Assembly (NCBI GenBank): GCA_949358305.1
Contig: OX442319.1
Location: forward strand, 13,578,001 to 13,642,000
Direction: 5' to 3'
Length of the DNA stretch: 64,000 nucleotides
Source of the DNA: Strigamia acuminata
Lineage: Eukaryota > Arthropoda > Chilopoda > Geophilomorpha > Linotaeniidae
Part shown: piece by piece, positions 10,679 to 59,221 of the stretch
Position numbering within the stretch: position 1 is the first letter of the stretch
Layout of the letters: each line of letters starts with the position of its first letter
Position numbers and translations under genes: made by a program
The notes under the pieces: generated by a model
What the model was told of the DNA's origin: nothing
Seen by the model: only the letters and a program-made list of their open reading frames with translations
Databases searched by the model: none

Positions 10679-10756
10679 GATGAAAAAATAATGAAAATGA
10701 TTAATAATTTAAACGAAAACTTAACTTTCTTGCGCGTTTTCAGCCTAAATAAGCGA

Positions 10757-27527: not shown

Positions 27528-27538
27528 TAGTTTGTTAA

Positions 27539-28996
27539 CCTTTTCGCGGATTGGCTTCCGCGAAATCCGCATTTCGGGGGTGACTATTCTGGGAATTCCG
27601 GGTGGACCATACTCTTCCGAAAAATGTCCGGGGTGGTGTTGGGAGTGTCGATAGACTGTTTTGTGTCAAGGTTGCCAATTTTCATTTAAGTATTGGAAGG
27701 TTCATTTCTGTGCATTCTCATATATTTTTTTCACAGGAGCAACGAGGCGCGATGAAGGGGGATCAAGCGAGAGTGAATAAAATAAACTCGTTTTTGTCTC
27801 AAATGCGCGTTTGCGTTTGTAAATTTGGTTGTCTTGCAACGCGGTGGCGCGTTTGAGTTTCGTGTTGCGATACAAACACGCACGGGTGCGTATTGGAGTC
27901 GTAAACGACTTTCTGTCGCAATGCGATCGCGTATTTGACAAATTTCTGCAGATTTTTGCCAATATTTGACAATTTTCAGACAAATTTCAATTAATTTTAG
28001 AAATTTTTGAGAGATTTCAATAAAAGTTTGAGGAATTTCTTATGCTGACGCTAAAATGCCAAAAGGAGTCTTAACTCAGAAGAGCACTTTTCCGACCACT
28101 TAGGTGTCGGAAAAGCCCTTCCAAAGGTCGCAAAACGTGCTCTACGCGTTTTTTGACACTAGAACGGTCGAAAACGAGTCTAAAACTGCTAAGCTGGCGC
28201 CTGTAACTTGGCGCATTCGCTGGGTCGCTCGAAAATGAGATTCGAGCGAACCGAAACCTATGAGAGAAACGCGCCGGCGGAAATATTCGTTTTTACCAAT
28301 GAATACTTAATAAATCTTCATGGGAATTTAATCCCAATCTACTGTAGGCTTAGGAACCTTGAATACCAAATAAAAACAAAGGAGCAAAGACGGGAAACAA
28401 AGAACAAGGGCCCGACGCCCGTAAATCACCAAAATGGCTATCTGCCAGACACGCTAGTGGCCTTGAGCCACTTCTAACTTCGTTTTCGAGGTCGTGGGTC
28501 TCGAAAACGACTAAACCGAGTGGTGGGAACGATTCCCCGAGGTCTTTTTAGTCAATGTCGCCCAAAACCCGAATCAACAAGCTAACTTTCAACGAGAAAC
28601 GAAGACTGGAGCCGAATGCGGTGATAAGCGCTCATTCCAGACTCGTGTAAGCGATCTCCGCTTAAAGCCAGTTGCTCTGAGCAGACGACGCAATCGCTTA
28701 CCAAGGAAAAAGACGGGTTTATGGGCTCAAAACCCGACGAAACACTTAAACAGGATCCAGAAATTACCAAGCGAGTTGGTAAGCTAAACTAAAACTGTAA
28801 AATAAGTTGGGGACTTGGTAAAATGCGAGTCTCTCAAACTTTTGTTGCGTCCTGCTCGCAACACGCGCGATGTACGCGCGTGGCCGCGTGTTGAACGTGC
28901 GCACTACGCGCAAGAACCGTACAAACCGAGGTAAAACGAATTAAACACATATCTAATGCAAAAACAATTATTAAATACATCATTCTTGTTGCTGTT
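27539..28996. other. Left region of giant element
   Basis: Unique compared with the rest of the copy and repeated in copy 2 at 42615-44072. It has no convincing gene. It contains small hairpins, for example CTTTTCCGAC/GTCGGAAAAG (about 28085-28115) and TCGTTTTCGAG/CTCGAAAACGA (about 28487-28517). Confidence 0.6.
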
Positions 28997-29941
28997 TGCA
29001 AACTTGCAAAACTTGCACCGAATTTGGGCAATTTTTTACAAATTTCAGCAGATTTTTGTCTATATTTGACAAATTTCAGCAGATTTCCTCAATCCTCAAA
29101 CATTTGCTGATATTTCTCAAACATTTTCTAAAATTAATTGAAATCTGTCTGAAATTTGTCTTGAATGTGTCAAATATTGTCAAAAATCCGTGGAAATTTG
29201 TCAAATACTGGCAAAAATCCATGTAAATTTGTCAAAAATTGCCATAATTTGGTGCAAATTGTGTTAGATATTGGAAAAATTTATTTTAACGCTTCCAACG
29301 CGCCAGTAAATCGCGCGTGCACACGCGTGGATTTTTCGTCATAGTTGGATGCGCGCAAACCTCACGTAACTTGCGCCAAAATTTGGCAATTTTTGACAAA
29401 TTTCAGCAGATTTTTGCCAGTATTTGACAAATTTCCACTGATTTTTGACAATATTTGACCCAACAACTGCGCCACGTTCCAGGCGCCGGTTTAGGCATTT
29501 TAGACCCGTTTTAGACCGTTTTAGATGGCGAAAACGTTCTCTCCATCATTTTCTACCCCTGGGTGAGGTTTTCAGCGTTCATGATTGATGAAAAAGCTGT
29601 TTTCTAACTAGCTGTCCCATTGCTAGTTTTGGCGTCAGGTTTTAGCAACTTTCCAATCCGACTCTGTCGTCTGCACGACCTCCAAGACCGTTTTAGGGTT
29701 AATTTGAGTCAAATAATTCATTCTGGGGGTTGTTTTGGGTTTTTTACAAGTGTGTTTTTGTAGTTTTTATTGGTTTCAAACATTGTCAATTCTTTATACA
29801 AGTGTAACTTTCATTTCTCTGTATTTTGAGAACTTTGCATTGCAGCAAAGTTCATTTCTTGCCCCTTAATTATTGTGTAATTGTTGGTTTTCAAGCCCGT
29901 TTTTTAACAATAACTTTATTTGAAGTGCCTATTGTTTCAGT

Positions 29942-30166
29942 CACGTGCTTCCACGTGCCTTTTATTGTTGAGCAATTTCTTGGGCAGTTGCGCTCCTGTT
30001 GCTAGCATTGCCGCGCGTTCTCCGCGCGTGTACTCGCGCGTTTCGCATCACACACATTCGGGTTCAATGGCCTATCGCGGCGGCACATTGTGTGGCATAG
30101 CGCGGCACGTTGCAATTACGTGACGTGGCACGTTGCTGTTACGTGACGCGATAGCCAGTATTTAAG
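29942..30166 (+). promoter_or_regulatory. Promoter-like block pointing into the palindrome
   Basis: Two CACGTG E-boxes (29942-29947, 29952-29957), two TTACGTGACG CRE/E-box-like sites (30116-30125, 30139-30148) and a TATTTAAG TATA-like box (30159-30166) followed by GC-rich then AT-rich DNA. The mirrored block in the right arm (about 35425-35655, minus) would fire towards it. Function is inferred only. Confidence 0.4.
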
Positions 30167-30242
30167 CAGGGGATTCCATCATCGTTTACACAAATGCGCA
30201 TTGCAACGTGGAGGCGCATTCGAGTCCTTTTCCCAAGCGAAA

Positions 30243-30890
30243 TTTGTCCTTTTTCAACGCGAAATCGTATGCGATTCGCTTTCGAATCGAATACGAGTTT
30301 TGTCCTTTTTCAACGCGAAATCGTATGCGATTCGCTTTCGAATCGAATGCGAATTTTGCCCTTCTTCAACGCGAAATCGTATTCGACTCGCTTTCGAGTC
30401 GGATGCGAATTTTGCCCTTCTTCAACGCGAAATCGTATTCGACTCGCTTTCGAGTCGAATGCGAATTTTTCCCTTCTTCAACGCGAAATCGTATTCGACT
30501 CGCTTTCGAGTCGAATGCGAATTTTGCCCTTCTTCAACGCGAAATCGTATTCGACTCGTTTTCGAGTCGAGTACGAATTTTGCCCTTCTTCAAAGCGAAA
30601 TCGTATTCGACTCGTTTTCGAGTCGAATGCGAATTCGTATTCGACTCGTTTTCGAGTCGAGTACGAATTTTGCCCTTCTTCAACGCGAAATCGTATTCGA
30701 CTCGTTTTCGAGTCGAATGCGAATTTTGCCCTTCTTCAACGCGAAATCGTATTCGACTCGTTTTCGAGTCGAATGCGAATTTTGCCCTTCTTCAACGCGA
30801 AATCGTATTCGACTCGTTTTCGAGTCGAATGCGAATTTTGCCCTTCTTCAACGCGAAATCGTATTCGACTCGTTTTCGAGTCGAATACGA
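30243..30890 (+). repeat. 56-bp hairpin-forming tandem array (left)
   Basis: About eleven units of 56 bp. Each contains CCCTTCTTCAACGCGAAATC followed by the dyad ATTCGACTCG-TTTT-CGAGTCGAAT. The GC/CpG-rich composition lacks stop codons, so all three plus frames stay open for over 230 codons. These frames are a by-product of the repeat. Copy 2: 45319-45966. Confidence 0.85.
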
Positions 30891-33800
30891 GATAGTCGAT
30901 GACCCGTTCCCGGACTTTGACTCGTACGACTCGTATTCGAGATGTATTCGAGATGTATTCGAATCGTATTCGAGTCGCATTCGAGATGGTCGATGATTTC
31001 CACTCGCTCGTATACGCGTTGTATACGAGCTCGTATTTTGATCGTAATCGTAAACGAATCGTTTACAAGTCGTATACAAGTTGTATACGACGTGTATACA
31101 CCTCGTATACGAACGAAGTTTGGAAAATCCACCGGATACTTACTACGACATGAAAACACATAGTAGTCACATACGTCTTATTTGGAAATTGTGTTTTCAC
31201 AAACTTCGTTCGTATACGAGGTGTATACACGTCGTATACGACTTGTATACGACTTGTAAACGATTCGTTTACGATTACGATCAAAATACGAGCTCGTATA
31301 CAACGCGTATACGAGCGAGTGGAAATCATCGACCATCTCGAATACGACTCGAATTCGATTCGAATACGATTCGAATTCGATTCGAATACGAATACGATCA
31401 AAATACGAACTCGTAACAACTCGAATACGAGATAGTCGATGACCCGTTCCCGGACTTTGACTCGTACGACTCGTATTCGAGATGTATTCGAGATGTATTC
31501 GAATCGTATTCGAGTCGCATTCGAGATGGTCGATGATTTCCACTCGCTCGTATACGCGTTGTATACGAGCTCGTATTTTGATCGTAATCGTAAACGAATC
31601 GTTTACAAGTCGTATACAAGTCGTATACGACGTGTATACACCTCGTATACGAACGAAGTTTGGAAAATCCACCGGATACTTACTACGACATGAAAACACA
31701 TAGTAGTCACATACGTCTTATTTGGAAATTGTGTTTTCACAAACTTCGTTCGTATACGAGGTGTATACATGTCGTATACGACTTGTATACGACTTGTAAA
31801 CGATTCGTTTACGATTACGATCAAAATACGAGCTCGTATACAACGCGTATACGAGCGAGTGGAAATCATCGACCATCTCGAATACGACTCGAATTCGATT
31901 CGAATACGATTCGAATTCGATTCGAATACGAATACGATCAAAATACGAACTCGTAACAACTCGAATACGAGATAGTCGATGACCCGTTCCCGGACTTTGA
32001 CTCGTACGACTCGTATTCGAGATGTATTCGAGATGTATTCGAATCGTATTCGAGTCGCATTCGAGATGGTCGATGATTTCCACTCGCTCGTATACGCGTT
32101 GTATACGAGCTCGTATTTTGATCGTAATCGTAAACGAATCGTTTACAAGTCGTATACAAGTCGTATACGACGTGTATACACCTCGTATACGAACGAAGTT
32201 TGGAAAATCCACCGGATACTTACTACGACATGAAAACACATAGTAGTCACATACGTCTTATTTGGAAATTGTGTTTTCACAAACTTCGTTCGTATACGAG
32301 GTGTATACACGTCGTATACGACTTGTATACGACTTGTAAACGATTCGTTTACGATTACGATCAAAATACGAGCTCGTATACAACGCGTATACGAGCGAGT
32401 GGAAATCATCGACCATCTCGAATACGACTCGAATTCGATTCGAATACGATTCGAATTCGATTCGAATACGAATACGATCAAAATACGAACTCGTAACAAC
32501 TCGAATACGAGATAGTCGATGACCCGTTCCCGGACTTTGACTCGTACGACTCGTATTCGAGATGTATTCGAGATGTATTCGAATCGTATTCGAGTCGCAT
32601 TCGAGATGGTCGATGATTTCCACTCGCTCGTATACGCGTTGTATACGAGCTCGTATTTTGATCGTAATCGTAAACGAATCGTTTACAAGTCGTATACAAG
32701 TTGTATACGACGTGTATACACCTCGTATACGAACGAAGTTTGGAAAATCCACCGGATACTTACTACGACATGAAAACACATAGTAGTCACATACGTCTTA
32801 TTTGGAAATTGTGTTTTCACAAACTTCGTTCGTATACGAGGTGTATACACGTCGTATACGACTTGTATACGACTTGTAAACGATTCGTTTACGATTACGA
32901 TCAAAATACGAGCTCGTATACAACGCGTATACGAGCGAGTGGAAATCATCGACCATCTCGAATACGACTCGAATTCGATTCGAATACGATTCGAATTCGA
33001 TTCGAATACGAATACGATCAAAATACGAACTCGTAACAACTCGAATACGAGATAGTCGATGACCCGTTCCCGGACTTTGACTCGTACGACTCGTATTCGA
33101 GATGTATTCGAGATGTATTCGAATCGTATTCGAGTCGCATTCGAGATGGTCGATGATTTCCACTCGCTCGTATACGCGTTGTATACGAGCTCGTATTTTG
33201 ATCGTAATCGTAAACGAATCGTTTACAAGTCGTATACAAGTCGTATACGACGTGTATACACCTCGTATACGAACGAAGTTTGGAAAATCCACCGGATACT
33301 TACTACGACATGAAAACACATAGTAGTCACATACGTCTTATTTGGAAATTGTGTTTTCACAAACTTCGTTCGTATACGAGGTGTATACATGTCGTATACG
33401 ACTTGTATACGACTTGTAAACGATTCGTTTACGATTACGATCAAAATACGAGCTCGTATACAACGCGTATACGAGCGAGTGGAAATCATCGACCATCTCG
33501 AATACGACTCGAATTCGATTCGAATACGATTCGAATTCGATTCGAATACGAATACGATCAAAATACGAACTCGTAACAACTCGAATACGAGATAGTCGAT
33601 GACCCGTTCCCGGACTTTGACTCGTACGACTCGTATTCGAGATGTATTCGAGATGTATTCGAATCGTATTCGAGTCGCATTCGAGATGGTCGATGATTTC
33701 CACTCGCTCGTATACGCGTTGTATACGAGCTCGTATTTTGATCGTAATCGTAAACGAATCGTTTACAAGTCGTATACAAGTCGTATACGACGTGTATACA

Positions 33801-34670
33801 CCTCGTATACGAACGAAGTTTGGAAAATCCACCGGATACTTACTACGACATGAAAACACATAGTAGTCACATACGTCTTATTTGGAAATTGTGTTTTCAC
33901 AAACTTCGTTCGTATACGAGGTGTATACACGTCGTATACGACTTGTATACGACTTGTAAACGATTCGTTTACGATTACGATCAAAATACGAGCTCGTATA
34001 CAACGCGTATACGAGCGAGTGGAAATCATCGACCATCTCGAATACGACTCGAATTCGATTCGAATACGATTCGAATTCGATTCGAATACGAATACGATCA
34101 AAATACGAACTCGTAACAACTCGAATACGAGATAGTCGATGACCCGTTCCCGGACTTTGACTCGTACGACTCGTATTCGAGATGTATTCGAGATGTATTC
34201 GAATCGTATTCGAGTCGCATTCGAGATGGTCGATGATTTCCACTCGCTCGTATACGCGTTGTATACGAGCTCGTATTTTGATCGTAATCGTAAACGAATC
34301 GTTTACAAGTCGTATACAAGTCGTATACGACGTGTATACACCTCGTATACGAACGAAGTTTGGAAAATCCACCGGATACTTACTACGACATGAAAACACA
34401 TAGTAGTCACATACGTCTTATTTGGAAATTGTGTTTTCACAAACTTCGTTCGTATACGAGGTGTATACACGTCGTATACGACTTGTATACGACTTGTAAA
34501 CGATTCGTTTACGATTACGATCAAAATACGAGCTCGTATACAACGCGTATACGAGCGAGTGGAAATCATCGACCATCTCGAATGCGACTCGAATACGATT
34601 CGAATACATCTCGAATACATCTCGAATACGAGTCGTACGAGTCAAAGTCCGGGAACGGGTCATCGACTAT
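30891..34670. repeat. 540-bp satellite array, 7 units (copy 1)
   Basis: Seven head-to-tail units of exactly 540 bp (starts at 30891, 31431, 31971, 32511, 33051, 33591, 34131). Each unit is itself a foldback: about 170-bp arms rich in TCGTATACGA-type words around an AT-richer loop of about 100 bp. Very CpG-rich and low complexity (TCG, CGA, GTATAC). The last unit ends in the mirrored start of the right arm. Confidence 0.9.
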
Positions 34671-36620
34671 CTCGTACTCGACTCGAAAACGAGTCGAATA
34701 CGAATTCGCATTCGACTCGAAAACGAGGCGAATACGATTTTGCGTTGAAGAAGGGCAAAATTCGCATTCGACTCGAAAACGAGTCGAATACGATTTCGCG
34801 TTGAAGAAGGGCAAAATTCGTACTCGACTCGAAAACGAGTCGAATACGATTTCGCGTTGAAGAAGGGCAAAATTCGAACTCGACTCGAAAACGAGTCGAA
34901 TACGATTTCGCGTTGAAGAAGGGCAAAATTCGCATTCGACTCGAAAACGAGTCGAATACGATTTCGCGTTGAAGAAGGGCAAAATTCGTACTCGACTCGA
35001 AAACGAGTCGAATACGAATTCGCATTCGACTCGAAAACGAGTCGAATACGATTTCGCGTTGAAGAAGGGCAAAATTCGTACTCGACTCGAAAACGAGTCG
35101 AATACGATTTCGCGTTGAAGAAGGGCAAAATTCGCATTCGACTCGAAAGCGAGTCGAATACGATTTCGCGTTGAAGAAGGGAAAAATTCGCATTCGACTC
35201 GAAAGCGAGTCGAATACGATTTCGCGTTGAAGAAGGGCAAAACTCGTATTCGATTCGAAAGCGAATCGAATACAATTTTGCGTTGAAAAAGGACAAAAAT
35301 CGTATTCGATTCGCTTTCGAATCGAATACGAGTTTTGTCCTTTTTCAACGCTTGGGAAAAGGACTCGAATGCGCCTCCACGTTGCAATGCGCATTTGTGT
35401 AAACGATGATGGAATCCCCTGCTTAAATACTGGCTATCGCGTCACGTAACAGCAACGTGCCACGTCACGTAATTGCAACGTGCCGCGCTATGCCACACAA
35501 TGTGCCGCCGCGATAGGCCATTGAACCCGAATGTGTGTGATGCGAAACGCGCGAGTACGCGCGCGGAGAACGCGCGGCAATGCTAGCAACAGGAGCGCAA
35601 CTGCCCAAGAAATTGCTCAACAATAAAAGGCACGTGGAAGCACGTGCCTGAAACAATAGGCACTTCAAATAAAGTTATTGTTAAAAAACGGGCTTGAAAA
35701 CCAACAATTACACAATAATTAAGGGGCAAGAAATGAACTTTGCTGCAATGCAAAGTTCTCAAAATACAGAGAAATGAAAGTTACACTTGTATAAAGAATT
35801 GACAATGTTTGAAACCAATAAAAACTACAAAAACACACTTGTAAAAAACCCAAAACAACCCCCAGAATGAATTATTTGACTCAAATTAACCCTAAAACGG
35901 TCTTGGAGGTCGTGCAGACGACAGAGAACGGATCGGAAGGTTGCTAAAACCTGACACCAAAACTAGCTATGGGACAGCTAGTTAGAAAACAGCTTTTTCA
36001 TCAATCATGAACGCTGAAAACCTCACCCAGGGGTAGAAAATGATGGAGAGAACGTTTTCGCCATCTAAAACGGTCTAAAACGGGTCTAAAATGCCTAAAC
36101 CGGCGCCTGGAACGTGGCGCAGTTGTTGGGTCAAATATTGTCAAAAATCAGTGGAAATTTGTCAAATACTGGCAAAAATCTGCTGAAATTTGTCCAAAAT
36201 TGCCAAATTTTGGCGCAAGTTACGTGAGGTTTGCGCGCATCCAACTATGACGAAAAATCCATGCGTGTGCACGCGCGATTTACTGGCGCGTTGGAAGCGT
36301 TAAAATAAATTTTTCCAATATCTAACACAATTTGCACCGAATTATGGCAATTTTTGACAAATTTACATGGATTTTTGCCAGTATTTGACAAATTTCTACG
36401 GATTTTTGACAATATTTGACAAATTCCAGACAAATTTCAGACAAATTTCAATTAATTTTAGAAATTTTATGAGAAATTTCAGCAAATGTTTGAGGATTGA
36501 GGAAATCTTCTGAAATTTGTCAAATATAGGCAAAAATCTTCTGAAATTTGTCAAATACAGGCAAAAATCTGCTGAAATTTGTCAAAAATTGCCCAAATTC
36601 CGTGCAAGTTTTGCAAGTTT
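34671..36620 (-). repeat. Right inverted arm of the foldback
   Basis: Reverse-complement counterpart of the left arm, including its own 56-bp hairpin array (about 34680-35330) and the mirrored promoter-like block. Copy 2: 49747-51696. Confidence 0.85.
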
Positions 36621-39600
36621 TGCGCGCATCAAATCGTACGCGCGTCTATACTATTGCACGAGCGCATTGACGCGTGATGAACACCGACCACGTTTACGAA
36701 GTGAATTCGAGCTACAAAAGTATCGAGTCGCCATTCTATGATGGAAAAAAAAAATTAAGTGTAAACAAACAAAATAAAAACTTTAATATACAAGAAACGT
36801 ACAATTCCACTCAACTTTGTTTCAAATTTTATTTATTGGATCATTGAAAATAAACAGTAGTGTTGTGCACTGTACGCTTAAGTGTATACCGGCGATGCGT
36901 TGTTTTGTGGTGGGGATTTGCCTCGATAATTGATCTTTTCTCTTTGTTTGCAATATTTTTTTGGCCTTTTTTGTTGATTTTTCGGTTTGAAATTGTTTTT
37001 TTCCGGTGTAATTTAAGTGGTGGAAGGTTGTTGGCGTGTGTTGAGGGTAATTTTGGCGGTTTTTGGGTCGGGATTTGGGGTTTGATGCAGCGGATAGCGC
37101 ATGCGAATCGCCGTCGACCGTAGCATTAGCAATTGCAACGTGCCGCGCTATGCCACACAATGTGCCGCCGCGATAGGCCATCGAATCCGAATGTGTGTGA
37201 TGCGAAACGCGAGTACGCGCGCGGAGAACGCGCGGCAATGCTAGCAACAGGAGCGCAACTGCCCAAGAAATTGCTCAACAATAAAAGGCACGTGGAAGCA
37301 CGTGCCTGAAACAATAGGCACTTCAAATAAAGTTATTGTTAAAAAACGGGCTTGAAAACCAACAATTACACAATAATTAAGGGGCAAGAAATGAACTTTG
37401 CTGCAATGCAAAGTTCTCAAAATACAGAGAAATGAAAGTTACACTTGTATAAAGAATTGACAATGTTTGAAACCAATAAAAACTACAAAAACACACTTGT
37501 AAAAAACCCAAAACAACCCCCAGAATGAATTATTTGACTCAAATTAACCCTAAAACGGTCTTGGAGGTCGTGCAGACGACAGAGAACGGATCGGAAGGTT
37601 GCTAAAACCTGACGCCAAAACTAGCAATGGGACAGCTAGTTAGAAAACAGCTTTTTCATCAATCATGAACGCTGAAAACCTCACCCAGGGGTAGAAAATG
37701 ATGGAGAGAACGTTTTCGCCATCTAAAACGGTCTAAAACGGGTCTAAAATGCCTAAACCGGCGCCTGGAACGTGGCGCAGTTGTTGGGTCAAATATTGTC
37801 AAAAATCAGTGGAAATTTGTCAAATACTGGCAAAAATCTGCTGAAATTTGTCCAAAATTGCCAAATTTTGGCGCAAGTTACGTGAGGTTTGCGCGCATCC
37901 AACTATGACGAAAAATCCATGCGTGTGCACGCGCGATTTACTGGCGCGTTGGAAGCGTTAAAATAAATTTTTCCAATATCTAACACAATTTGCACCGAAT
38001 TATGGCAATTTTTGACAAATTTACATGGATTTTTGCCAGTATTTGACAAATTTCCACGGATTTTTGACAATATTTGACAAATTCCAGACAAATTTCAGAC
38101 AAATTTCAATTAATTTTAGAAATTTTATGAGAAATTTCAGCAAATGTTTGAGGATTGAGGAAATCTTCTGAAATTTGTCAAATATAGGCAAAAATCTTCT
38201 GAAATTTGTCAAATACAGGCAAAAATCTGCTGAAATTTGTCAAAAATTGCCCAAATTCCGTGCAAGTTTTGCAAGTTTTGCGCGCATCAAATCGTACGCG
38301 CGCCTATACTATTGCACGAGCGCATTGACGCGTGATGAACACCGACCACGTTTACGAAGTGAATTCGAGCTACAAAAGTATCGAGTCGCCATTCTATGAT
38401 GGAAAAAAAAAATTAAGTGTAAACAAACAAAATAAAAACTTTAATATACAAGAAACGTACAATTCCACTCAACTTTGTTTCAAATTTTATTTATTGGATC
38501 ATTGAAAATAAACAGTAGTGTTGTGCACTGTACGCTTAAGTGTATACCGGCGATGCGTTGTTTTGTGGTGGGGATTTGCCTCGATAATTGATCTTTTCTC
38601 TTTGTTTGCAATATTTTTTTGGCCTTTTTTGTTGATTTTTCGGTTTGAAATTGTTTTTTTCCGGTGTAATTTAAGTGGTGGAAGGTTGTTGGCGTGTGTT
38701 GAGGGTAATTTTGGCGGTTTTTGGGTCGGGATTTGGGGTTTGATGCAGCGGATAGCGCATGCGAATCGCCGTCGACCGTAGCATTAGCAATTGCAACGTG
38801 CCGCGCTATGCCACACAATGTGCCGCCGCGATAGGCCATCGAATCCGAATGTGTGTGATGCGAAACGCGAGTACGCGCGCGGAGAACGCGCGGCAATGCT
38901 AGCAACAGGAGCGCAACTGCCCAAGAAATTGCTCAACAATAAAAGGCACGTGGAAGCACGTGCCTGAAACAATAGGCACTTCAAATAAAGTTATTGTTAA
39001 AAAACGGGCTTGAAAACCAACAATTACACAATAATTAAGGGGCAAGAAATGAACTTTGCTGCAATGCAAAGTTCTCAAAATACAGAGAAATGAAAGTTAC
39101 ACTTGTATAAAGAATTGACAATGTTTGAAACCAATAAAAACTACAAAAACACACTTGTAAAAAACCCAAAACAACCCCCAGAATGAATTATTTGACTCAA
39201 ATTAACCCTAAAACGGTCTTGGAGGTCGTGCAGACGACAGAGAACGGATCGGAAGGTTGCTAAAACCTGACGCCAAAACTAGCAATGGGACAGCTAGTTA
39301 GAAAACAGCTTTTTCATCAATCATGAACGCTGAAAACCTCACCCAGGGGTAGAAAATGATGGAGAGAACGTTTTCGCCATCTAAAACGGTCTAAAACGGG
39401 TCTAAAATGCCTAAACCGGCGCCTGGAACGTGGCGCAGTTGTTGGGTCAAATATTGTCAAAAATCAGTGGAAATTTGTCAAATACTGGCAAAAATCTGCT
39501 GAAATTTGTCCAAAATTGCCAAATTTTGGCGCAAGTTACGTGAGGTTTGCGCGCATCCAACTATGACGAAAAATCCATGCGTGTGCACGCGCGATTTACT

Positions 39601-40476
39601 GGCGCGTTGGAAGCGTTAAAATAAATTTTTCCAATATCTAACACAATTTGCACCGAATTATGGCAATTTTTGACAAATTTACATGGATTTTTGCCAGTAT
39701 TTGACAAATTTCCACGGATTTTTGACAATATTTGACAAATTCCAGACAAATTTCAGACAAATTTCAATTAATTTTAGAAATTTTATGAGAAATTTCAGCA
39801 AATGTTTGAGGATTGAGGAAATCTTCTGAAATTTGTCAAATATAGGCAAAAATCTTCTGAAATTTGTCAAATACAGGCAAAAATCTGCTGAAATTTGTCA
39901 AAAATTGCCCAAATTCCGTGCAAGTTTTGCAAGTTTTGCGCGCATCAAATCGTATGCGCGCCTATACTATTGCACGAGCGCATTGACGCGTGATGAACAC
40001 CGACCACGTTTACGAAGTGAATTCGAGCTACAAAAGTATCGAGTCGCCATTCTATGATGGAAAAAAAAAATTAAGTGTAAACAAACAAAATAAAAACTTT
40101 AATATACAAGAAACGTACAATTCCACTCAACTTTGTTTCAAATTTTATTTATTGGATCATTGAAAATAAACAGTAGTGTTGTGCACTGTACGCTTAAGTG
40201 TATACCGGCGATGCGTTGTTTTGTGGTGGGGATTTGCCTCGATAATTGATCTTTTCTCTTTGTTTGCAATATTTTTTTGGCCTTTTTTGTTGATTTTTCG
40301 GTTTGAAATTGTTTTTTTCCGGTGTAATTTAAGTGGTGGAAGGTTGTTGGCGTGTGTTGAGGGTAATTTTGGCGGTTTTTGGGTCGGGATTAGTGTTTTC
40401 TGCGATTTTTTATCGGTATTTGGGGTTTGATGCAGCGGATAGCGCATGCGAATCGCCGTCGACCGTAGCATTAGCA
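35471..40476 (-). repeat. 1,658-bp tandem repeat, three units (copy 1)
   Basis: Unit starts marked by AATTGCAACGTGCCGCGC at 35471, 37131 and 38789. The first unit is the outer part of the right arm; the later ones repeat it plus a segment including GATCATTGAAAATAAACAG. Unit 3 has a 27-bp insertion near 40391. All frames inside recur identically and look non-coding. Confidence 0.85.
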
Positions 40477-40933
40477 AGTGCGCGCGCAAGTTAAATGTGT
40501 ACAGGACTGTGAGAAAATAAAACGTGTGTGGAAGAGTAAATGTTCTTTGGTGATCGCCATGAGTTCGTACTTTGTCGTGGGCGCGAAATGTGTGTGATAT
40601 ATATGCTACTATGCGTGATGTAGCGCCGTCAGCGCGTTTCAGCACGCGATGTAGCGCCCTGAGCGCGTCCAAATGCGTACAGGTGTTCGACAGATGTGCC
40701 AGGGCTTCACGTGCATACGCGAAACATAAACATGAAGAAAACAGAAAAAACCGTTGTGTGTGATGTTTATAAAGACACATTACACAAAGAATACTACTCT
40801 TCATACAAAAAGCAATAAACTTTATACATATTGCAATAAACTTACAAAATGGTAAAAATAAAATACTGGAAAACATGGCCTTGAATAATAGTGGAAAACA
40901 TGGCGTACTGCCTTGAATACCCCCTTGAATACG

Positions 40934-41962
40934 TCGCACCGCATCATCTCGCCTCACTTCTCGTCTTGGAAATAAATAAACGCCCCGGCGTTTATTCGAG
41001 GCAATGTCCAACTTGGGCTTTCATTCGCGCCTCACATCCCGCCTTGGTAATAAATAAACGCCCCGGCGTTTATTCGAGGCACATCACCCACACCTCCCCG
41101 GCGTTCAAACGAGTAGCTGCGCGTATTTGACCCCGGTTTTTATTCTTTCAAATTGTCGTGTGTTTTCAAAGTTCTTAATTTGTTCAAAAACAAACAAAAT
41201 GGCTATTTGTTGATTTTTAATTGATTTTATCGATTTCTGTTCGTTTTTTGCTGGTTTTTAATCGATTTTTCTGTATTTTTGATCAATTTTTGCCAATTGT
41301 AATCGTTATTTGTCATTCTGAATTGATTATTGTCAGGTTTCAGTCGATTTTTGTCGATTTCTGATCAATGTTTATACATTTCTTATCATTTTGTGTAGAT
41401 TTCTGTTGAATTTTAATCATATTTCTTCGTTTTTATTCAATTTTTGTCCCATGCTCCGCGATCAGTTCGAATAATTGACACCATACTGTGCTTTTACTCA
41501 TATTCAAGATGGCGTCGCAAACTCAAGGTCGAATTCCGCTGAATTCATTTATTGCGACTGTTTGCGCTCCATACATGCGAAAAGGATTATGGGAAAAATC
41601 CTCAATGCAGGTCATTTTGGTGTCAAATGAGCGAGGAAGGCTGGAGATAAGGAAAATTGGTGAAATTTCAAAAAAAAGCTAAACAATCAAAATTTACATG
41701 AAGCTCAATTTTTCTAACTGGAAATGCATGTATCGTCAATTTCGGGATATTTTAGGGGTGAAATTGACTGGGAAGGGACCCCCACATTCCCCATGCGTCA
41801 ACGCGCGCGTTGACGAAATTCAAATCCAGGTTTTCACACAGCCCCACGTTATTTTCGGGTTCCAATTGCCGTATTGCCGTATTGCCTCAAATAAACGCCG
41901 GGGCGTTTATTAATTTTCATTAATTTTCCAGACCGGAAATGAGGCGAGGTGATGCGGTACGA
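40934..41962. mobile_element. Nested inverted-repeat element inside copy 1
   Basis: Left TCGCACCGCATCATCTCGCC mirrors right TCGTACCGCATCACCTCGCC, and the match continues to a palindrome AATAAACGCC-CC-GGCGTTTATT near both ends. This gives inverted ends of about 70 bp and a body of about 1.03 kb. The palindrome occurs twice on the left (about 40976, 41053) and once on the right (about 41887). No transposase. Copy 2: 54352-55380. Confidence 0.7.
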
Positions 41963-42560
41963 TGCAAAATTGCGAGATGTAGTTTGCTTTATTTGTTAAA
42001 ACAAATTAGGCGTCACTAATTCACCTGTATTAGGGTTTCAATGTGTGAAATTTCAAAATTTATCGGTTCCGTCAAAACGCCATTGAAAAGTTACATTTTT
42101 ATAACGTTTCAATGATGAAAACGGCCATTTTTGATGAAAAACAGCCATTTTTTATAGAAAAAACGACGAAGAAAGCCATTTTCACTATGAAAAATGGCTG
42201 AAAATGACCATTTTGACGAAAAACGGCCATTTTTACTACGAAAAATGGCTAAAAATGCCACTTGAGTGAGTGCAAGTACATTTGGTGATGTACTATCGCG
42301 AGCGCGCGCGTTTTTGTGCAGTACAATGTGCTGATTAAACCAACAGCATTATAGAGTGATTACATTGTTCATTTGTGTTTTTAAGTTACAAAATGGTACA
42401 AAATCATAAAATAAACTTGTAAAGTGCAATTTCTGCGGATTGATCAAAATCCGCAAAATCCGCCGCAAAATTGCGAACAGGGGATCAGCATATAGGCAGC
42501 CGTAATGTTAAAAATGGGGTCCCTTTCGCACTCCGCAAAATCCGCATGCGCGCCATAAGG

Positions 42561-42614
42561 TTAAGCACTCCAGAAGCGTGTGTCGCACGCGTCGGCGCGC
42601 CGCTAAAAACATAT
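42561..42614. other. 54-bp spacer between giant element copies
   Basis: Begins with the TTAA duplication of copy 1 and ends ATAT directly before copy 2. It contains CGTCGGCGCGCCG-type GC-rich sequence and no feature beyond that. Confidence 0.8.
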
Positions 42615-45600
42615 CCTTTTCGCGGATTGGCTTCCGCGAAATCCGCATTTCGGGGGTGACTATTCTGGGAATTCCGGGTGGACCATACTCTTCCGAAAAA
42701 TGTCCGGGGTGGTGTTGGGAGTGTCGATAGACTGTTTTGTGTCAAGGTTGCCAATTTTCATTTAAGTATTGGAAGGTTCATTTCTGTGCATTCTCATATA
42801 TTTTTTTCACAGGAGCAACGAGGCGCGATGAAGGGGGATCAAGCGAGAGTGAATAAAATAAACTCGTTTTTGTCTCAAATGCGCGTTTGCGTTTGTAAAT
42901 TTGGTTGTCTTGCAACGCGGTGGCGCGTTTGAGTTTCGTGTTGCGATACAAACACGCACGGGTGCGTATTGGAGTCGTAAACGACTTTCTGTCGCAATGC
43001 GATCGCGTATTTGACAAATTTCTGCAGATTTTTGCCAATATTTGACAATTTTCAGACAAATTTCAATTAATTTTAGAAATTTTTGAGAGATTTCAATAAA
43101 AGTTTGAGGAATTTCTTATGCTGACGCTAAAATGCCAAAAGGAGTCTTAACTCAGAAGAGCACTTTTCCGACCACTTAGGTGTCGGAAAAGCCCTTCCAA
43201 AGGTCGCAAAACGTGCTCTACGCGTTTTTTGACACTAGAACGGTCGAAAACGAGTCTAAAACTGCTAAGCTGGCGCCTGTAACTTGGCGCATTCGCTGGG
43301 TCGCTCGAAAATGAGATTCGAGCGAACCGAAACCTATGAGAGAAACGCGCCGGCGGAAATATTCGTTTTTACCAATGAATACTTAATAAATCTTCATGGG
43401 AATTTAATCCCAATCTACTGTAGGCTTAGGAACCTTGAATACCAAATAAAAACAAAGGAGCAAAGACGGGAAACAAAGAACAAGGGCCCGACGCCCGTAA
43501 ATCACCAAAATGGCTATCTGCCAGACACGCTAGTGGCCTTGAGCCACTTCTAACTTCGTTTTCGAGGTCGTGGGTCTCGAAAACGACTAAACCGAGTGGT
43601 GGGAACGATTCCCCGAGGTCTTTTTAGTCAATGTCGCCCAAAACCCGAATCAACAAGCTAACTTTCAACGAGAAACGAAGACTGGAGCCGAATGCGGTGA
43701 TAAGCGCTCATTCCAGACTCGTGTAAGCGATCTCCGCTTAAAGCCAGTTGCTCTGAGCAGACGACGCAATCGCTTACCAAGGAAAAAGACGGGTTTATGG
43801 GCTCAAAACCCGACGAAACACTTAAACAGGATCCAGAAATTACCAAGCGAGTTGGTAAGCTAAACTAAAACTGTAAAATAAGTTGGGGACTTGGTAAAAT
43901 GCGAGTCTCTCAAACTTTTGTTGCGTCCTGCTCGCAACACGCGCGATGTACGCGCGTGGCCGCGTGTTGAACGTGCGCACTACGCGCAAGAACCGTACAA
44001 ACCGAGGTAAAACGAATTAAACACATATCTAATGCAAAAACAATTATTAAATACATCATTCTTGTTGCTGTTTGCAAACTTGCAAAACTTGCACCGAATT
44101 TGGGCAATTTTTTACAAATTTCAGCAGATTTTTGTCTATATTTGACAAATTTCAGCAGATTTCCTCAATCCTCAAACATTTGCTGATATTTCTCAAACAT
44201 TTTCTAAAATTAATTGAAATCTGTCTGAAATTTGTCTTGAATGTGTCAAATATTGTCAAAAATCCGTGGAAATTTGTCAAATACTGGCAAAAATCCATGT
44301 AAATTTGTCAAAAATTGCCATAATTTGGTGCAAATTGTGTTAGATATTGGAAAAATTTATTTTAACGCTTCCAACGCGCCAGTAAATCGCGCGTGCACAC
44401 GCGTGGATTTTTCGTCATAGTTGGATGCGCGCAAACCTCACGTAACTTGCGCCAAAATTTGGCAATTTTTGACAAATTTCAGCAGATTTTTGCCAGTATT
44501 TGACAAATTTCCACTGATTTTTGACAATATTTGACCCAACAACTGCGCCACGTTCCAGGCGCCGGTTTAGGCATTTTAGACCCGTTTTAGACCGTTTTAG
44601 ATGGCGAAAACGTTCTCTCCATCATTTTCTACCCCTGGGTGAGGTTTTCAGCGTTCATGATTGATGAAAAAGCTGTTTTCTAACTAGCTGTCCCATTGCT
44701 AGTTTTGGCGTCAGGTTTTAGCAACTTTCCAATCCGACTCTGTCGTCTGCACGACCTCCAAGACCGTTTTAGGGTTAATTTGAGTCAAATAATTCATTCT
44801 GGGGGTTGTTTTGGGTTTTTTACAAGTGTGTTTTTGTAGTTTTTATTGGTTTCAAACATTGTCAATTCTTTATACAAGTGTAACTTTCATTTCTCTGTAT
44901 TTTGAGAACTTTGCATTGCAGCAAAGTTCATTTCTTGCCCCTTAATTATTGTGTAATTGTTGGTTTTCAAGCCCGTTTTTTAACAATAACTTTATTTGAA
45001 GTGCCTATTGTTTCAGTCACGTGCTTCCACGTGCCTTTTATTGTTGAGCAATTTCTTGGGCAGTTGCGCTCCTGTTGCTAGCATTGCCGCGCGTTCTCCG
45101 CGCGTGTACTCGCGCGTTTCGCATCACACACATTCGGGTTCAATGGCCTATCGCGGCGGCACATTGTGTGGCATAGCGCGGCACGTTGCAATTACGTGAC
45201 GTGGCACGTTGCTGTTACGTGACGCGATAGCCAGTATTTAAGCAGGGGATTCCATCATCGTTTACACAAATGCGCATTGCAACGTGGAGGCGCATTCGAG
45301 TCCTTTTCCCAAGCGAAATTTGTCCTTTTTCAACGCGAAATCGTATGCGATTCGCTTTCGAATCGAATACGAGTTTTGTCCTTTTTCAACGCGAAATCGT
45401 ATGCGATTCGCTTTCGAATCGAATGCGAATTTTGCCCTTCTTCAACGCGAAATCGTATTCGACTCGCTTTCGAGTCGGATGCGAATTTTGCCCTTCTTCA
45501 ACGCGAAATCGTATTCGACTCGCTTTCGAGTCGAATGCGAATTTTTCCCTTCTTCAACGCGAAATCGTATTCGACTCGCTTTCGAGTCGAATGCGAATTT

Positions 45601-45966
45601 TGCCCTTCTTCAACGCGAAATCGTATTCGACTCGTTTTCGAGTCGAGTACGAATTTTGCCCTTCTTCAAAGCGAAATCGTATTCGACTCGTTTTCGAGTC
45701 GAATGCGAATTCGTATTCGACTCGTTTTCGAGTCGAGTACGAATTTTGCCCTTCTTCAACGCGAAATCGTATTCGACTCGTTTTCGAGTCGAATGCGAAT
45801 TTTGCCCTTCTTCAACGCGAAATCGTATTCGACTCGTTTTCGAGTCGAATGCGAATTTTGCCCTTCTTCAACGCGAAATCGTATTCGACTCGTTTTCGAG
45901 TCGAATGCGAATTTTGCCCTTCTTCAACGCGAAATCGTATTCGACTCGTTTTCGAGTCGAATACGA

Positions 45967-48900
45967 GATAGTCGATGACCCGTTCCCGGACTTTGACTCG
46001 TACGACTCGTATTCGAGATGTATTCGAGATGTATTCGAATCGTATTCGAGTCGCATTCGAGATGGTCGATGATTTCCACTCGCTCGTATACGCGTTGTAT
46101 ACGAGCTCGTATTTTGATCGTAATCGTAAACGAATCGTTTACAAGTCGTATACAAGTTGTATACGACGTGTATACACCTCGTATACGAACGAAGTTTGGA
46201 AAATCCACCGGATACTTACTACGACATGAAAACACATAGTAGTCACATACGTCTTATTTGGAAATTGTGTTTTCACAAACTTCGTTCGTATACGAGGTGT
46301 ATACACGTCGTATACGACTTGTATACGACTTGTAAACGATTCGTTTACGATTACGATCAAAATACGAGCTCGTATACAACGCGTATACGAGCGAGTGGAA
46401 ATCATCGACCATCTCGAATACGACTCGAATTCGATTCGAATACGATTCGAATTCGATTCGAATACGAATACGATCAAAATACGAACTCGTAACAACTCGA
46501 ATACGAGATAGTCGATGACCCGTTCCCGGACTTTGACTCGTACGACTCGTATTCGAGATGTATTCGAGATGTATTCGAATCGTATTCGAGTCGCATTCGA
46601 GATGGTCGATGATTTCCACTCGCTCGTATACGCGTTGTATACGAGCTCGTATTTTGATCGTAATCGTAAACGAATCGTTTACAAGTCGTATACAAGTTGT
46701 ATACGACGTGTATACACCTCGTATACGAACGAAGTTTGGAAAATCCACCGGATACTTACTACGACATGAAAACACATAGTAGTCACATACGTCTTATTTG
46801 GAAATTGTGTTTTCACAAACTTCGTTCGTATACGAGGTGTATACACGTCGTATACGACTTGTATACGACTTGTAAACGATTCGTTTACGATTACGATCAA
46901 AATACGAGCTCGTATACAACGCGTATACGAGCGAGTGGAAATCATCGACCATCTCGAATACGACTCGAATTCGATTCGAATACGATTCGAATTCGATTCG
47001 AATACGAATACGATCAAAATACGAACTCGTAACAACTCGAATACGAGATAGTCGATGACCCGTTCCCGGACTTTGACTCGTACGACTCGTATTCGAGATG
47101 TATTCGAGATGTATTCGAATCGTATTCGAGTCGCATTCGAGATGGTCGATGATTTCCACTCGCTCGTATACGCGTTGTATACGAGCTCGTATTTTGATCG
47201 TAATCGTAAACGAATCGTTTACAAGTCGTATACAAGTCGTATACGACGTGTATACACCTCGTATACGAACGAAGTTTGGAAAATCCACCGGATACTTACT
47301 ACGACATGAAAACACATAGTAGTCACATACGTCTTATTTGGAAATTGTGTTTTCACAAACTTCGTTCGTATACGAGGTGTATACATGTCGTATACGACTT
47401 GTATACGACTTGTAAACGATTCGTTTACGATTACGATCAAAATACGAGCTCGTATACAACGCGTATACGAGCGAGTGGAAATCATCGACCATCTCGAATA
47501 CGACTCGAATTCGATTCGAATACGATTCGAATTCGATTCGAATACGAATACGATCAAAATACGAACTCGTAACAACTCGAATACGAGATAGTCGATGACC
47601 CGTTCCCGGACTTTGACTCGTACGACTCGTATTCGAGATGTATTCGAGATGTATTCGAATCGTATTCGAGTCGCATTCGAGATGGTCGATGATTTCCACT
47701 CGCTCGTATACGCGTTGTATACGAGCTCGTATTTTGATCGTAATCGTAAACGAATCGTTTACAAGTCGTATACAAGTCGTATACGACGTGTATACACCTC
47801 GTATACGAACGAAGTTTGGAAAATCCACCGGATACTTACTACGACATGAAAACACATAGTAGTCACATACGTCTTATTTGGAAATTGTGTTTTCACAAAC
47901 TTCGTTCGTATACGAGGTGTATACACGTCGTATACGACTTGTATACGACTTGTAAACGATTCGTTTACGATTACGATCAAAATACGAGCTCGTATACAAC
48001 GCGTATACGAGCGAGTGGAAATCATCGACCATCTCGAATACGACTCGAATTCGATTCGAATACGATTCGAATTCGATTCGAATACGAATACGATCAAAAT
48101 ACGAACTCGTAACAACTCGAATACGAGATAGTCGATGACCCGTTCCCGGACTTTGACTCGTACGACTCGTATTCGAGATGTATTCGAGATGTATTCGAAT
48201 CGTATTCGAGTCGCATTCGAGATGGTCGATGATTTCCACTCGCTCGTATACGCGTTGTATACGAGCTCGTATTTTGATCGTAATCGTAAACGAATCGTTT
48301 ACAAGTCGTATACAAGTCGTATACGACGTGTATACACCTCGTATACGAACGAAGTTTGGAAAATCCACCGGATACTTACTACGACATGAAAACACATAGT
48401 AGTCACATACGTCTTATTTGGAAATTGTGTTTTCACAAACTTCGTTCGTATACGAGGTGTATACATGTCGTATACGACTTGTATACGACTTGTAAACGAT
48501 TCGTTTACGATTACGATCAAAATACGAGCTCGTATACAACGCGTATACGAGCGAGTGGAAATCATCGACCATCTCGAATACGACTCGAATTCGATTCGAA
48601 TACGATTCGAATTCGATTCGAATACGAATACGATCAAAATACGAACTCGTAACAACTCGAATACGAGATAGTCGATGACCCGTTCCCGGACTTTGACTCG
48701 TACGACTCGTATTCGAGATGTATTCGAGATGTATTCGAATCGTATTCGAGTCGCATTCGAGATGGTCGATGATTTCCACTCGCTCGTATACGCGTTGTAT
48801 ACGAGCTCGTATTTTGATCGTAATCGTAAACGAATCGTTTACAAGTCGTATACAAGTCGTATACGACGTGTATACACCTCGTATACGAACGAAGTTTGGA

Positions 48901-49746
48901 AAATCCACCGGATACTTACTACGACATGAAAACACATAGTAGTCACATACGTCTTATTTGGAAATTGTGTTTTCACAAACTTCGTTCGTATACGAGGTGT
49001 ATACACGTCGTATACGACTTGTATACGACTTGTAAACGATTCGTTTACGATTACGATCAAAATACGAGCTCGTATACAACGCGTATACGAGCGAGTGGAA
49101 ATCATCGACCATCTCGAATACGACTCGAATTCGATTCGAATACGATTCGAATTCGATTCGAATACGAATACGATCAAAATACGAACTCGTAACAACTCGA
49201 ATACGAGATAGTCGATGACCCGTTCCCGGACTTTGACTCGTACGACTCGTATTCGAGATGTATTCGAGATGTATTCGAATCGTATTCGAGTCGCATTCGA
49301 GATGGTCGATGATTTCCACTCGCTCGTATACGCGTTGTATACGAGCTCGTATTTTGATCGTAATCGTAAACGAATCGTTTACAAGTCGTATACAAGTCGT
49401 ATACGACGTGTATACACCTCGTATACGAACGAAGTTTGGAAAATCCACCGGATACTTACTACGACATGAAAACACATAGTAGTCACATACGTCTTATTTG
49501 GAAATTGTGTTTTCACAAACTTCGTTCGTATACGAGGTGTATACACGTCGTATACGACTTGTATACGACTTGTAAACGATTCGTTTACGATTACGATCAA
49601 AATACGAGCTCGTATACAACGCGTATACGAGCGAGTGGAAATCATCGACCATCTCGAATGCGACTCGAATACGATTCGAATACATCTCGAATACATCTCG
49701 AATACGAGTCGTACGAGTCAAAGTCCGGGAACGGGTCATCGACTAT
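45967..49746. repeat. 540-bp satellite array, 7 units (copy 2)
   Basis: Same unit as in copy 1. Two diagnostic sites per unit (TTGTATACG versus TCGTATACG; TATACATG versus TATACACG) give the order A A B C B C C here, against A B C A B C C in copy 1. Confidence 0.85.
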
Positions 49747-50546
49747 CTCGTACTCGACTCGAAAACGAGTCGAATACGAATTCGCATTCGACTCGAAAAC
49801 GAGGCGAATACGATTTTGCGTTGAAGAAGGGCAAAATTCGCATTCGACTCGAAAACGAGTCGAATACGATTTCGCGTTGAAGAAGGGCAAAATTCGTACT
49901 CGACTCGAAAACGAGTCGAATACGATTTCGCGTTGAAGAAGGGCAAAATTCGTACTCGACTCGAAAACGAGTCGAATACGATTTCGCGTTGAAGAAGGGC
50001 AAAATTCGCATTCGACTCGAAAACGAGTCGAATACGATTTCGCGTTGAAGAAGGGCAAAATTCGTACTCGACTCGAAAACGAGTCGAATACGAATTCGCA
50101 TTCGACTCGAAAACGAGTCGAATACGATTTCGCGTTGAAGAAGGGCAAAATTCGTACTCGACTCGAAAACGAGTCGAATACGATTTCGCGTTGAAGAAGG
50201 GCAAAATTCGCATTCGACTCGAAAGCGAGTCGAATACGATTTCGCGTTGAAGAAGGGAAAAATTCGCATTCGACTCGAAAGCGAGTCGAATACGATTTCG
50301 CGTTGAAGAAGGGCAAAACTCGTATTCGATTCGAAAGCGAATCGAATACAATTTTGCGTTGAAAAAGGACAAAAATCGTATTCGATTCGCTTTCGAATCG
50401 AATACGAGTTTTGTCCTTTTTCAACGCTTGGGAAAAGGACTCGAATGCGCCTCCACGTTGCAATGCGCATTTGTGTAAACGATGATGGAATCCCCTGCTT
50501 AAATACTGGCTATCGCGTCACGTAACAGCAACGTGCCACGTCACGT

Positions 50547-53500: not shown

Positions 53501-53894
53501 AAACAAAATAAAAACTTTAATATACAAGAAACGTACAATTCCACTCAACTTTGTTTCAAATTTTATTTATTGGATCATTGAAAATAAACAGTAGTGTTGT
53601 GCACTGTACGCTTAAGTGTATACCGGCGATGCGTTGTTTTGTGGTGGGGATTTGCCTCGATAATTGATCTTTTCTCTTTGTTTGCAATATTTTTTTGGCC
53701 TTTTTTGTTGATTTTTCGGTTTGAAATTGTTTTTTTCCGGTGTAATTTAAGTGGTGGAAGGTTGTTGGCGTGTGTTGAGGGTAATTTTGGCGGTTTTTGG
53801 GTCGGGATTAGTGTTTTCTGCGATTTTTTATCGGTATTTGGGGTTTGATGCAGCGGATAGCGCATGCGAATCGCCGTCGACCGTAGCATTAGCA
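50547..53894 (-). repeat. 1,658-bp tandem repeat, two units (copy 2)
   Basis: Unit starts at about 50547 and 52207, joining the right region at about 53894. Unit 2 carries the same 27-bp insertion as unit 3 of copy 1, so the middle unit of copy 1 is the one missing or gained. Confidence 0.8.
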
Positions 53895-55978: not shown

Positions 55979-56570
55979 TTATAGATGTTTTAAGACATCT
56001 ATAATTGGTGTGATACGTCAAATGGTTCTTCATACGAGAGTAAACTGTTGCAAGTTTACAATCATAACTTCTGGTTCCGTGCAATGGATGCATTTATTAG
56101 AGTATTACTTTTCAGTAAATACTCGTAATAATTCTGCTTACATAAAGTTGGCAATTTAGCTACACATTTACTGGCAAGTAAATGCTAATGTAGCTAGTCT
56201 TCAGTTTTGTACAGTTCTGGAAGAAGTATCCATGTTTATGCACAATGCTGAGTTGTGACATAAACTAGCTGGGGATTTAATCTAACTAAACTTTTCCGAG
56301 TTTAGTTATTTCAACCCTAATGTTACATTTTCGACACGCTGTTCGGCAGCCGTGGTTTACTGTAACTGGCAGGCCTTGTGGAACACATGTTGAATTATAT
56401 CCGGCCCGACGGGATTCTTACTACTCATCGCCGCGACCTGATCTCCTCACGGCCACACAGCCGTCATCGGGCACCCGGACATGGAGGCATCATATCACCC
56501 ATCTCCACGTCAAGTGTACGCCGTATGTAGGTTGTCATAGGCCCGCAGTATAAGGGGCATTGACTGCGCA
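55979..56570. other. Flank of copy 2 before the assembly gap
   Basis: Starts with a 24-bp palindrome (about 55980-56003, TATAGATGT/ACATCTATA). AT-rich to 56310, then GC-richer. I recognise no gene. Confidence 0.5.
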
Positions 56571-56770
56571 NNNNNNNNNNNNNNNNNNNNNNNNNNNNNN
56601 NNNNNNNNNNNNNNNNNNNNNNNNNNNNNNNNNNNNNNNNNNNNNNNNNNNNNNNNNNNNNNNNNNNNNNNNNNNNNNNNNNNNNNNNNNNNNNNNNNNN
56701 NNNNNNNNNNNNNNNNNNNNNNNNNNNNNNNNNNNNNNNNNNNNNNNNNNNNNNNNNNNNNNNNNNNNNN
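56571..56770. other. Assembly gap of 200 N
   Basis: Exactly 200 N, the size commonly used for gaps of unknown length. The sequence right after it is a giant-element terminus. Confidence 0.98.
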
Positions 56771-59215: not shown

Positions 59216-59221
59216 CTTTAA

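Follow-up and report, generated by a model that had tools for sequence, protein, structure and literature searches.

Giant gene-less piggyBac-like elements in the genome of Strigamia acuminata, with a direct dimer as their candidate ancestral mobile unit

The stretch of DNA analysed here, a 64,000-nucleotide window from Strigamia acuminata (contig OX442319.1; G000:C8:13578001-13642000 in a genome of 237.5 Mb and 157 contigs), carries two direct copies of a giant gene-less element separated by a 54-bp linker. On balance, we favour the view that this pair belongs to a non-autonomous, piggyBac-like family that amplified recently and in which a direct dimer, or "macrotransposon", was the ancestral unit of movement. 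A sequence-only reading of the window had singled out the first copy as a gene-less 15-kb segment with CCTT and AAGG ends and TTAA on either side, and had placed it correctly: TTAA occupies 27535-27538 and 42561-42564, around a segment of 15,022 bp (27539-42560). Its remark that two copies finish at identical bases also holds, as copy 2 (42615-55978) has the same first and last bases; both begin CCTTTTCG and finish CCATAAGG. What it missed is how often two copies move together as a direct dimer, joined by a linker whose length hardly varies.

The genome search with the element's termini that had been proposed returned 159 exact matches to the first 24 bases (end type L1) and 81 to the last 28 (type R1), while reversed-pattern controls for both returned none. 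Together with a second type of each end (59 left and 137 right), this amounts to 218 exact left and 218 exact right ends genome-wide; the family ends read CCTTTTCGCGG (L) and CCTTATGGCGC (R). Arrays were analysed on contigs C1-C11, for which the four end lists are complete, later contigs contributing to genome-wide counts and some flanks. Units were defined there as adjacent L..R pairs less than 70 kb apart, and longer or non-adjacent pairs were dropped. The 100 units so obtained have a median length of 15.5 kb and a minimum of 4,842 bp; 82 range from 11 to 20.1 kb, and three are shorter than 10 kb. By a rough estimate (218 ends multiplied by the median unit), the family makes up about 1.4% of the genome. 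Miniature inverted-repeat transposable elements (MITEs), short gene-less elements with inverted ends, measure under about 1 kb, and the median unit does not fit that class. That a non-autonomous family has not shrunk suggests, without proving, that the large interior matters.

Over 1.4 kb, the median pairwise divergence of the arms is 0.36% on the left (40 rows) and 0.14% on the right (42 rows), some loci being present as two overlapping rows; the means, 4.2% and 8.5%, are high because a few rows are rearranged. The amplification is recent. The window alone had suggested an element apparently still mobile or amplifying; a mobile, recently amplified giant with fixed ends and a 4-bp target duplication, described below, is supported. 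The second end types are related to the first over short distances. In the one R2 arm read (212 bp), clear likeness to R1 is confined to the last ~95 bp, with an 88-bp block further in shared at 87.5% at a second R2 locus. The single L2 arm read resembles L1 at 89% over 174 bp before passing into the 56-bp satellite. Three left ends stand in tandem, 382 bp apart, at G000:C1:66500848-66501612. A scan of viral_contigs with the left end gave no matches.

To characterise the target site, 41 left and 33 right outer flanks were read, ends flanked by the linker being left out. TA stands at the centre of all 74. TTAA, the piggyBac-like target proposed for the window, is preferred and accounts for only 27 of them, the others being ATAT, TTAT, TTAG, CTAA, CTAT, GTAA, ATAA, TTAC and GTAT. 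Of 26 arrays with both outer flanks known, 15 carry the same tetramer on the two sides, where shuffling the right flanks gives a mean of 4.8 (p ~5e-6); this holds for 9/13 dimers, 6/12 single copies and 0/1 trimer. Thus the expected TTAA duplication does recur in other copies, in six of the 15 matched arrays, but nine carry another NTAN (TTAT, TTAG, CTAA, TTAC or ATAT). The 2-bp TA duplication of Tc1/mariner elements does not describe a family in which all four positions agree in 15/26 arrays, far above shuffling and with nine of these not TTAA. This comparison leaves out the pair C8:205277-103084 (TTAA/TTAA), whose ends are 102 kb apart with other ends between, and the flanks of arrays with type 2 ends; C12:9200739-9213600 was scored as a mismatch, though the outermost ends there agree (CTAA/CTAA).

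Two insertions sit within copies of one 140-bp host satellite and permit comparison with neighbouring units. When the flanks at C9:716463 are joined through one TTAA, they align across the junction with intact satellite units nearby (99.3% over 296 bp) and so reveal an empty site. At C11:657547 (TTAG), the alignment is to a satellite unit bearing TCAG and has no gap at the insertion point. On the matched tetramers and the empty site, this is transposition with a 4-bp NTAN duplication in which TTAA is preferred.

The units on C1-C11 comprise 39 L1R1, 35 L1R2, 26 L2R2 and no L2R1, and are arranged in 68 arrays: 30 direct dimers, one trimer and 37 singles. In 11 of the singles the linker stands at an outer end, which marks them as pieces of damaged or longer arrays. 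A homologous linker occupies all 46 R-L junctions, in support of a single origin of the junction. It measures 54 bp in 44 of them, 60 bp in one, and contains a 50-bp unit in triplicate in the last (L127). Its 33-base core is exact in 30 cases and differs by one mismatch in five; the remaining 11 linkers fell beyond the mismatch limit and, when read, proved to be a single identical second allele with six changes in 54. The TTAA that follows copy 1 at its 3' end comes from this recurrent linker, so that the letters reported on both sides of the copy are present without the second being an ordinary outer flank. As the same linker is kept across L1R1, L1R2 and L2R2, the dimer junction is older than the subfamilies. 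The linker was ruled out as an independent genomic repeat, an R end and an L end lying beside it at 10/10 loci read, loci picked because the linker was variant or had no exact L1/R1 neighbours. It is not a notable hairpin (z -0.24 relative to shuffles).

The two copies of a dimer resemble each other in length more than chance would allow: they agree to within 1 bp in 6/30 dimers, against 0.26 expected by re-pairing (p ~1e-5). Left arms show no differences in six of seven dimers, the seventh (on C11) being rearranged, and one difference in the C81 trimer. Most such zero-difference counts are weak evidence because the commonest haplotype is common to many loci; informative dimers, in which both copies carry a rarer haplotype, are those on C6, C9:2427987 and C12 for left arms and on C4 for right arms. 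The window dimer and C9:4333139 have the same asymmetry, copy 1 being longer by 1,658 bp, which favours joint movement of the two copies. A macrotransposon is a pair that moves by its outer ends and leaves one target duplication, and the matched outer flanks of nine of the 13 dimers have this form; dimer movement is here read from flanks.

Other arrangements of the family's ends were also encountered. At G000:C1:26354085-26365626, C12:9546912-9568344 and C78:91999-101403, two left ends point towards one another across 9-21 kb; these loci are large palindromic fusions of two copies, with the linker at both ends (C1, C12) or at one (C78). At L128 (G000:C3:6607230-6607285), the linker lies between head-to-head left ends, one at TTAA and one at ATAT. 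A 462-bp right-end fragment at L060 (G000:C1:51858614-51859076) is bordered by the left end of a copy in the other orientation and by more element sequence; its joints read TTAT/ATAA on both sides, which makes it a nested self-insertion.

In the explanation we favour, a piggyBac-type transposase would act in trans on a relaxed target, 4 bp centred on TA (NTAN, with TTAA preferred). Its substrate would be an element without a recognisable transposase, whose interior, usually 11-20 kb and in the window copies made of satellite and foldback sequence, lies between short specific ends. The founder event may have been two insertions in direct order, 46 bp apart, because the TTAA and ATAT at the two ends of the linker resemble a pair of target sites. 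By pairing of copy 1's outer L with copy 2's outer R, the two would then have moved as a macrotransposon; the dimer would thereby have become the ancestral heritable mobile unit, with the linker retained in the later subfamilies L1R1, L1R2 and L2R2. Alike copies, monomers and occasional trimers could have arisen by recombination between the two copies or by copying with a tandem or circular intermediate as template. More tentatively, and with less than even confidence, we suggest a heritable dimer of two 12-20 kb gene-less copies in which the linker would be a working part (in end pairing, replication or copy number), the enzyme of piggyBac type with a relaxed NTAN target, and the large satellite and foldback interior kept by selection instead of dwindling to MITE size.

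We refer to the family as piggyBac-like and do not file it as piggyBac, formal membership being unproven. This wording was chosen because the CCTT ends and the TA-centred 4-bp duplication were found, whereas TTAA strictness and a matching transposase were not. CCTT at both ends agrees with the CCYT terminal rule given for piggyBac in the available text of two papers (PMC10175614, PMC2872659), and the duplication is supported by identical tetramers in 15/26 arrays, a central TA in 74/74 flanks and one empty site. Terminal inverted repeats of piggyBac measure 12-19 bp; the two ends here agree at 8 of the first 10 and 9 of the first 16 bases. A strict-TTAA piggyBac is ruled out by 47/74 outer flanks. 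According to the available text of PMC7351741, piggyBac chemistry involves a hairpin over four flanking bases, needs no particular flank for excision and joins with a 4-bp stagger, and, from that of PMC3408717, the piggyBac-type PiggyMac cuts 4 bp centred on TA without TTAA.

A search of the genome with the PF13843 profile gave at least 131 matches, with 116 of 346 candidates scored, and several piggyBac lineages are present. None of the 71 matches listed on C1-C11 lies inside any of the 68 arrays. The piggyBac transposase with matching ends that had been hoped for did not emerge, since the ends of both lineages compared differ from those of the family: the type A piggyBac (2,978 bp, TTAA followed by CACTAGAACGG) was rejected as a partner on this ground, and the L065/L067 piggyBac (TTAA followed by CCTTCCCATAGCC) has CCTT alone in common. 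L065 is a separate piggyBac of ~2.95 kb, and the same end occurs in L067. A homologue search, made for the type A transposase only, returned 388 relatives, the best 120 of which come from animals and environmental sequence sets. An intron-bearing piggyBac-type gene (type B/C) exists in dozens of copies, many recent, within larger repeats (e.g. L074-L090, L131); 17 loci compared are mostly 93-100% alike over up to 3.4 kb, and a 1,931-aa frame in the copy read was dismissed as an artefact of an N run. Inspection by eye showed four type C copies that share the direction of an L end and stand 15-28 kb downstream of it.

Several findings weigh against our explanation. The outer flanks are unequal in 11/26 arrays, the window dimer (TTAA/TTAT) among them; recombination between near-identical copies, assembly joins or retention of the donor tetramer at one end could produce such inequality. 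In the sequences compared, 11 of 12 joined flank pairs, including that of the window, had no empty counterpart. Right arms of dimers are mixed, with no differences in 4/8, one, two or three differences in others and one rearranged. Copy 1 exceeds copy 2 in length in 18 of 25 unequal dimers (p 0.04), a bias that the proposed model does not predict, and the inner ends are identical to the outer ends, so that the commonness of dimers lacks an explanation. As to the enzyme, the 47/74 outer flanks that are not TTAA depart from the strict TTAA duplication of piggyBac, and type A and L065 piggyBacs of this same genome stand at TTAA on 9/9 readable flanks of five copies (L061, L062, L064 and L065 on both sides, L063 on one). 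None of the listed DDE_Tnp_1_7 matches falls in the 68 arrays, and no same-ended autonomous partner was found among the two piggyBac lineages with readable ends (type A and L065), other superfamilies not having been searched for.

Among other explanations, one concerns the origin of the dimers. An extrachromosomal circle consisting of the element and the 54-bp linker might replicate and form multimers, from which a transposase cutting at one L and one R would release monomers, dimers and trimers. Equal lengths inside dimers, homologous linkers at 46/46 junctions, exact outer L and R ends on monomers, dimers and trimers, and the tandem triple linker at L127 would all be accounted for. ATAT, the linker tetramer beside L, also tends to be commoner on outer L (9/41) than on outer R flanks (2/33), but the excess is not significant (Fisher p 0.10) and a carry-over from the linker to outer L flanks is suggestive only. 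Circles, which an assembly cannot display, sit poorly with the rarity of trimers relative to dimers (1 vs 30), and the asymmetry common to C9:4333139 and the window dimer suggests inheritance of ready-made dimers; we consider this origin unlikely, though worth keeping in mind. Long terminal repeat (LTR) retrotransposons accompanied by solo LTRs also present direct repeats, a fixed middle and solos. If the copies were giant LTRs and the 54 bp a minimal internal region, dimers would be full elements and monomers solo LTRs, a formal likeness that extends to the short target duplication and the rare trimers. Against it, the ends are CC...GG and not TG...CA; the usual tRNA primer site contains TGG, which the window linker lacks, so that no such site stands beside the 5' repeat; every target read has a central TA; the linker, starting TTAA and ending ATAT, resembles target DNA between two insertions; and satellite-filled "LTRs" would need to be transcribed through. 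We regard an LTR-like nature as very improbable.

Segmental amplification or satellite-type spread without transposition, leaving the boundaries as a by-product, would suit the satellite interior and the nested, inverted and head-to-head arrangements, yet, for the copies read, the recurrence of the same termini at hundreds of loci, with matching 4-bp duplications and one empty site, makes it the least credible of the alternatives. The enzyme, finally, might belong elsewhere. Kolobok and Sola3 are superfamilies that also prefer TTAA targets, and an NTAN superfamily not yet known is a further candidate. The relaxed target departs from the textbook picture of piggyBac, and a search that did not extend to other transposase superfamilies brought up no piggyBac with the family's ends. 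In the available portions of the sources, however, the CCTT ends fit the piggyBac CCYT motif (PMC2872659, PMC10175614) and PiggyMac exemplifies a TA-centred 4-bp cut without TTAA (PMC3408717), and another superfamily seems to us distinctly unlikely.

Among known systems, the maize Ac/Ds elements belong to the hAT family and make an 8-bp duplication, against 4 bp here. The accessible text on their macrotransposons and composite insertions describes neighbouring termini that move the elements and the DNA between them, 10-28 kb, with endpoints that vary among the alleles described, whereas here one junction recurs at 46/46 places on C1-C11 (PMC9910405, PMC4270019). A likeness in tandem arrangement exists with the CMITEs of Acropora corals, non-autonomous piggyBac-type elements with CC[C/T]T ends, TTAA flanks and tandem arrays with alike spacers; as far as the available text goes, they differ in size (~100 bp against 15 kb) and in target (TTAA against NTAN), and no single genome-wide dimer linker is described for them (PMC2872659). 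Teratorn, in the parts of the papers accessible, is likewise a giant piggyBac-type element with CCYT ends and a TTAA preference but has a transposase and herpesvirus-derived genes, while the present family has no recognisable gene (PMC10175614, PMC6431247). Tetris and other foldback elements are described, in the text available, as apparently non-autonomous, with internal tandem repeats able to grow into satellite arrays; in Tetris these repeats lie in the terminal inverted repeats, whereas the present family has a short terminal match and an internal foldback (PMC4079207). Excision of internal eliminated sequences (IES) in Paramecium by PiggyMac shares the 4-bp staggered cut centred on TA with no need for TTAA, but, in the portion of the source consulted, is the developmental work of a domesticated enzyme and not germline spread (PMC3408717).

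Within the portions of the open-licence PMC literature available to us, no giant gene-less piggyBac-like dimer family was found. What appears to be new is the combination of large size with a lack of genes, the inheritance of a dimer that keeps one linker, and the NTAN target; piggyBac-type MITEs in tandem arrays with alike spacers are already known (PMC2872659). In the accessible part of one review, the efficiency of DNA transposition falls above ~6 kb of cargo (PMC6431247), which makes the recent spread of gene-less 15-kb units and 30-kb dimers unexpected. If our explanation is correct, a cut-and-paste element can settle into a stable composite form, the dimer, and spread independently in that form; a non-autonomous element can stay large; and complex satellites can travel inside transposons. 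The NTAN duplications, whether matched or not, form a natural record of how such an enzyme deals with the flanks of target and donor, and a relaxed-target system might find laboratory use.

The anatomy of the window pair is given in Table 1.

Table 1. Features of the window dimer (positions in the 64,000-nucleotide window)
Feature	Positions	Strand	Remarks
Outer left flank of the dimer, TTAA	27535..27538	.	Read as locus L025
Copy 1, 15,022 bp, CCTT...AAGG	27539..42560	+	G000:C8:13605539-13620560
Left terminus, type L1	27539..27569	+	159 exact 24-mers genome-wide
1,085-bp arm	29034..30117	+	Inverted relatives (97.8% to two) within 1,658-bp units
56-bp satellite, left block	30237..30890	+	
540-bp satellite, ~7 units, mostly >99% alike	30881..34631	+	
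56-bp satellite, right block	34660..35335	-	Inverted relative to left block
~1,658-bp tandem unit, 3 copies, last partial	35471..40391	+	One fewer in copy 2
Right arm and right terminus type R1 (CCTTATGGCGCGCATGCGG inwards)	40392..42560	+	81 exact 28-mers
Linker, 54 bp, TTAA-46 bp-ATAT	42561..42614	+	Between the copies
Copy 2, 13,364 bp	42615..55978	+	
Outer right flank of the dimer, TTAT	55979..55982	.	Read as locus L033

The left arm of copy 1 extends for ~1.5 kb before the 1,085-bp arm, and as the latter recurs inverted within the 1,658-bp units, the centre of the element is a foldback several kb long. The L1 terminus contains a perfect 9-bp hairpin stem (27542-27550 with 27557-27565, TTTCGCGGA-TTGGCT-TCCGCGAAA); over 62 bases its fold has a z of -2.3, with equally good folds in 2/200 shuffles, whereas the right end is not a notable hairpin (z 0.43). 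The 540-bp units are imperfect palindromes made from 11-bp motifs, and their satellite has 604 genome-wide matches; among the matches listed on C1-C11, all lie in or near elements. Copy 2, whose neighbours are ATAT on the left and TTAT on the right, differs from copy 1 by the absence of one 1,658-bp unit; their alignments give seven mismatches over 11,198 bp in the left part and, in an overlapping alignment of the right part, six mismatches and two gap positions over 5,435 bp. The description of the interior as gene-less and built of foldbacks and satellites is confirmed by the satellites and inverted repeats observed and by the domain searches: Pfam gave no match at cut-off for six element open reading frames (ORFs), with three weak sub-threshold matches in repetitive stretches, and Rfam none at gathering thresholds in the whole window. 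The longest stop-to-stop frame of copy 1, 291 codons, lies inside the 56-bp satellite.

Elsewhere in the window, a Ty3-type retroelement occupies 3126-10708 on the minus strand, with a 1,916-codon frame bearing protease, reverse transcriptase, RNase H and integrase domains; the 645-codon frame adjoining it had no Pfam match. An assembly gap (200 N) lies at 56571-56770, ~590 bp past copy 2, and positions 57946-59343 form a strongly skewed, minisatellite-like stretch with several open frames that encode GKKSG-type repeats.

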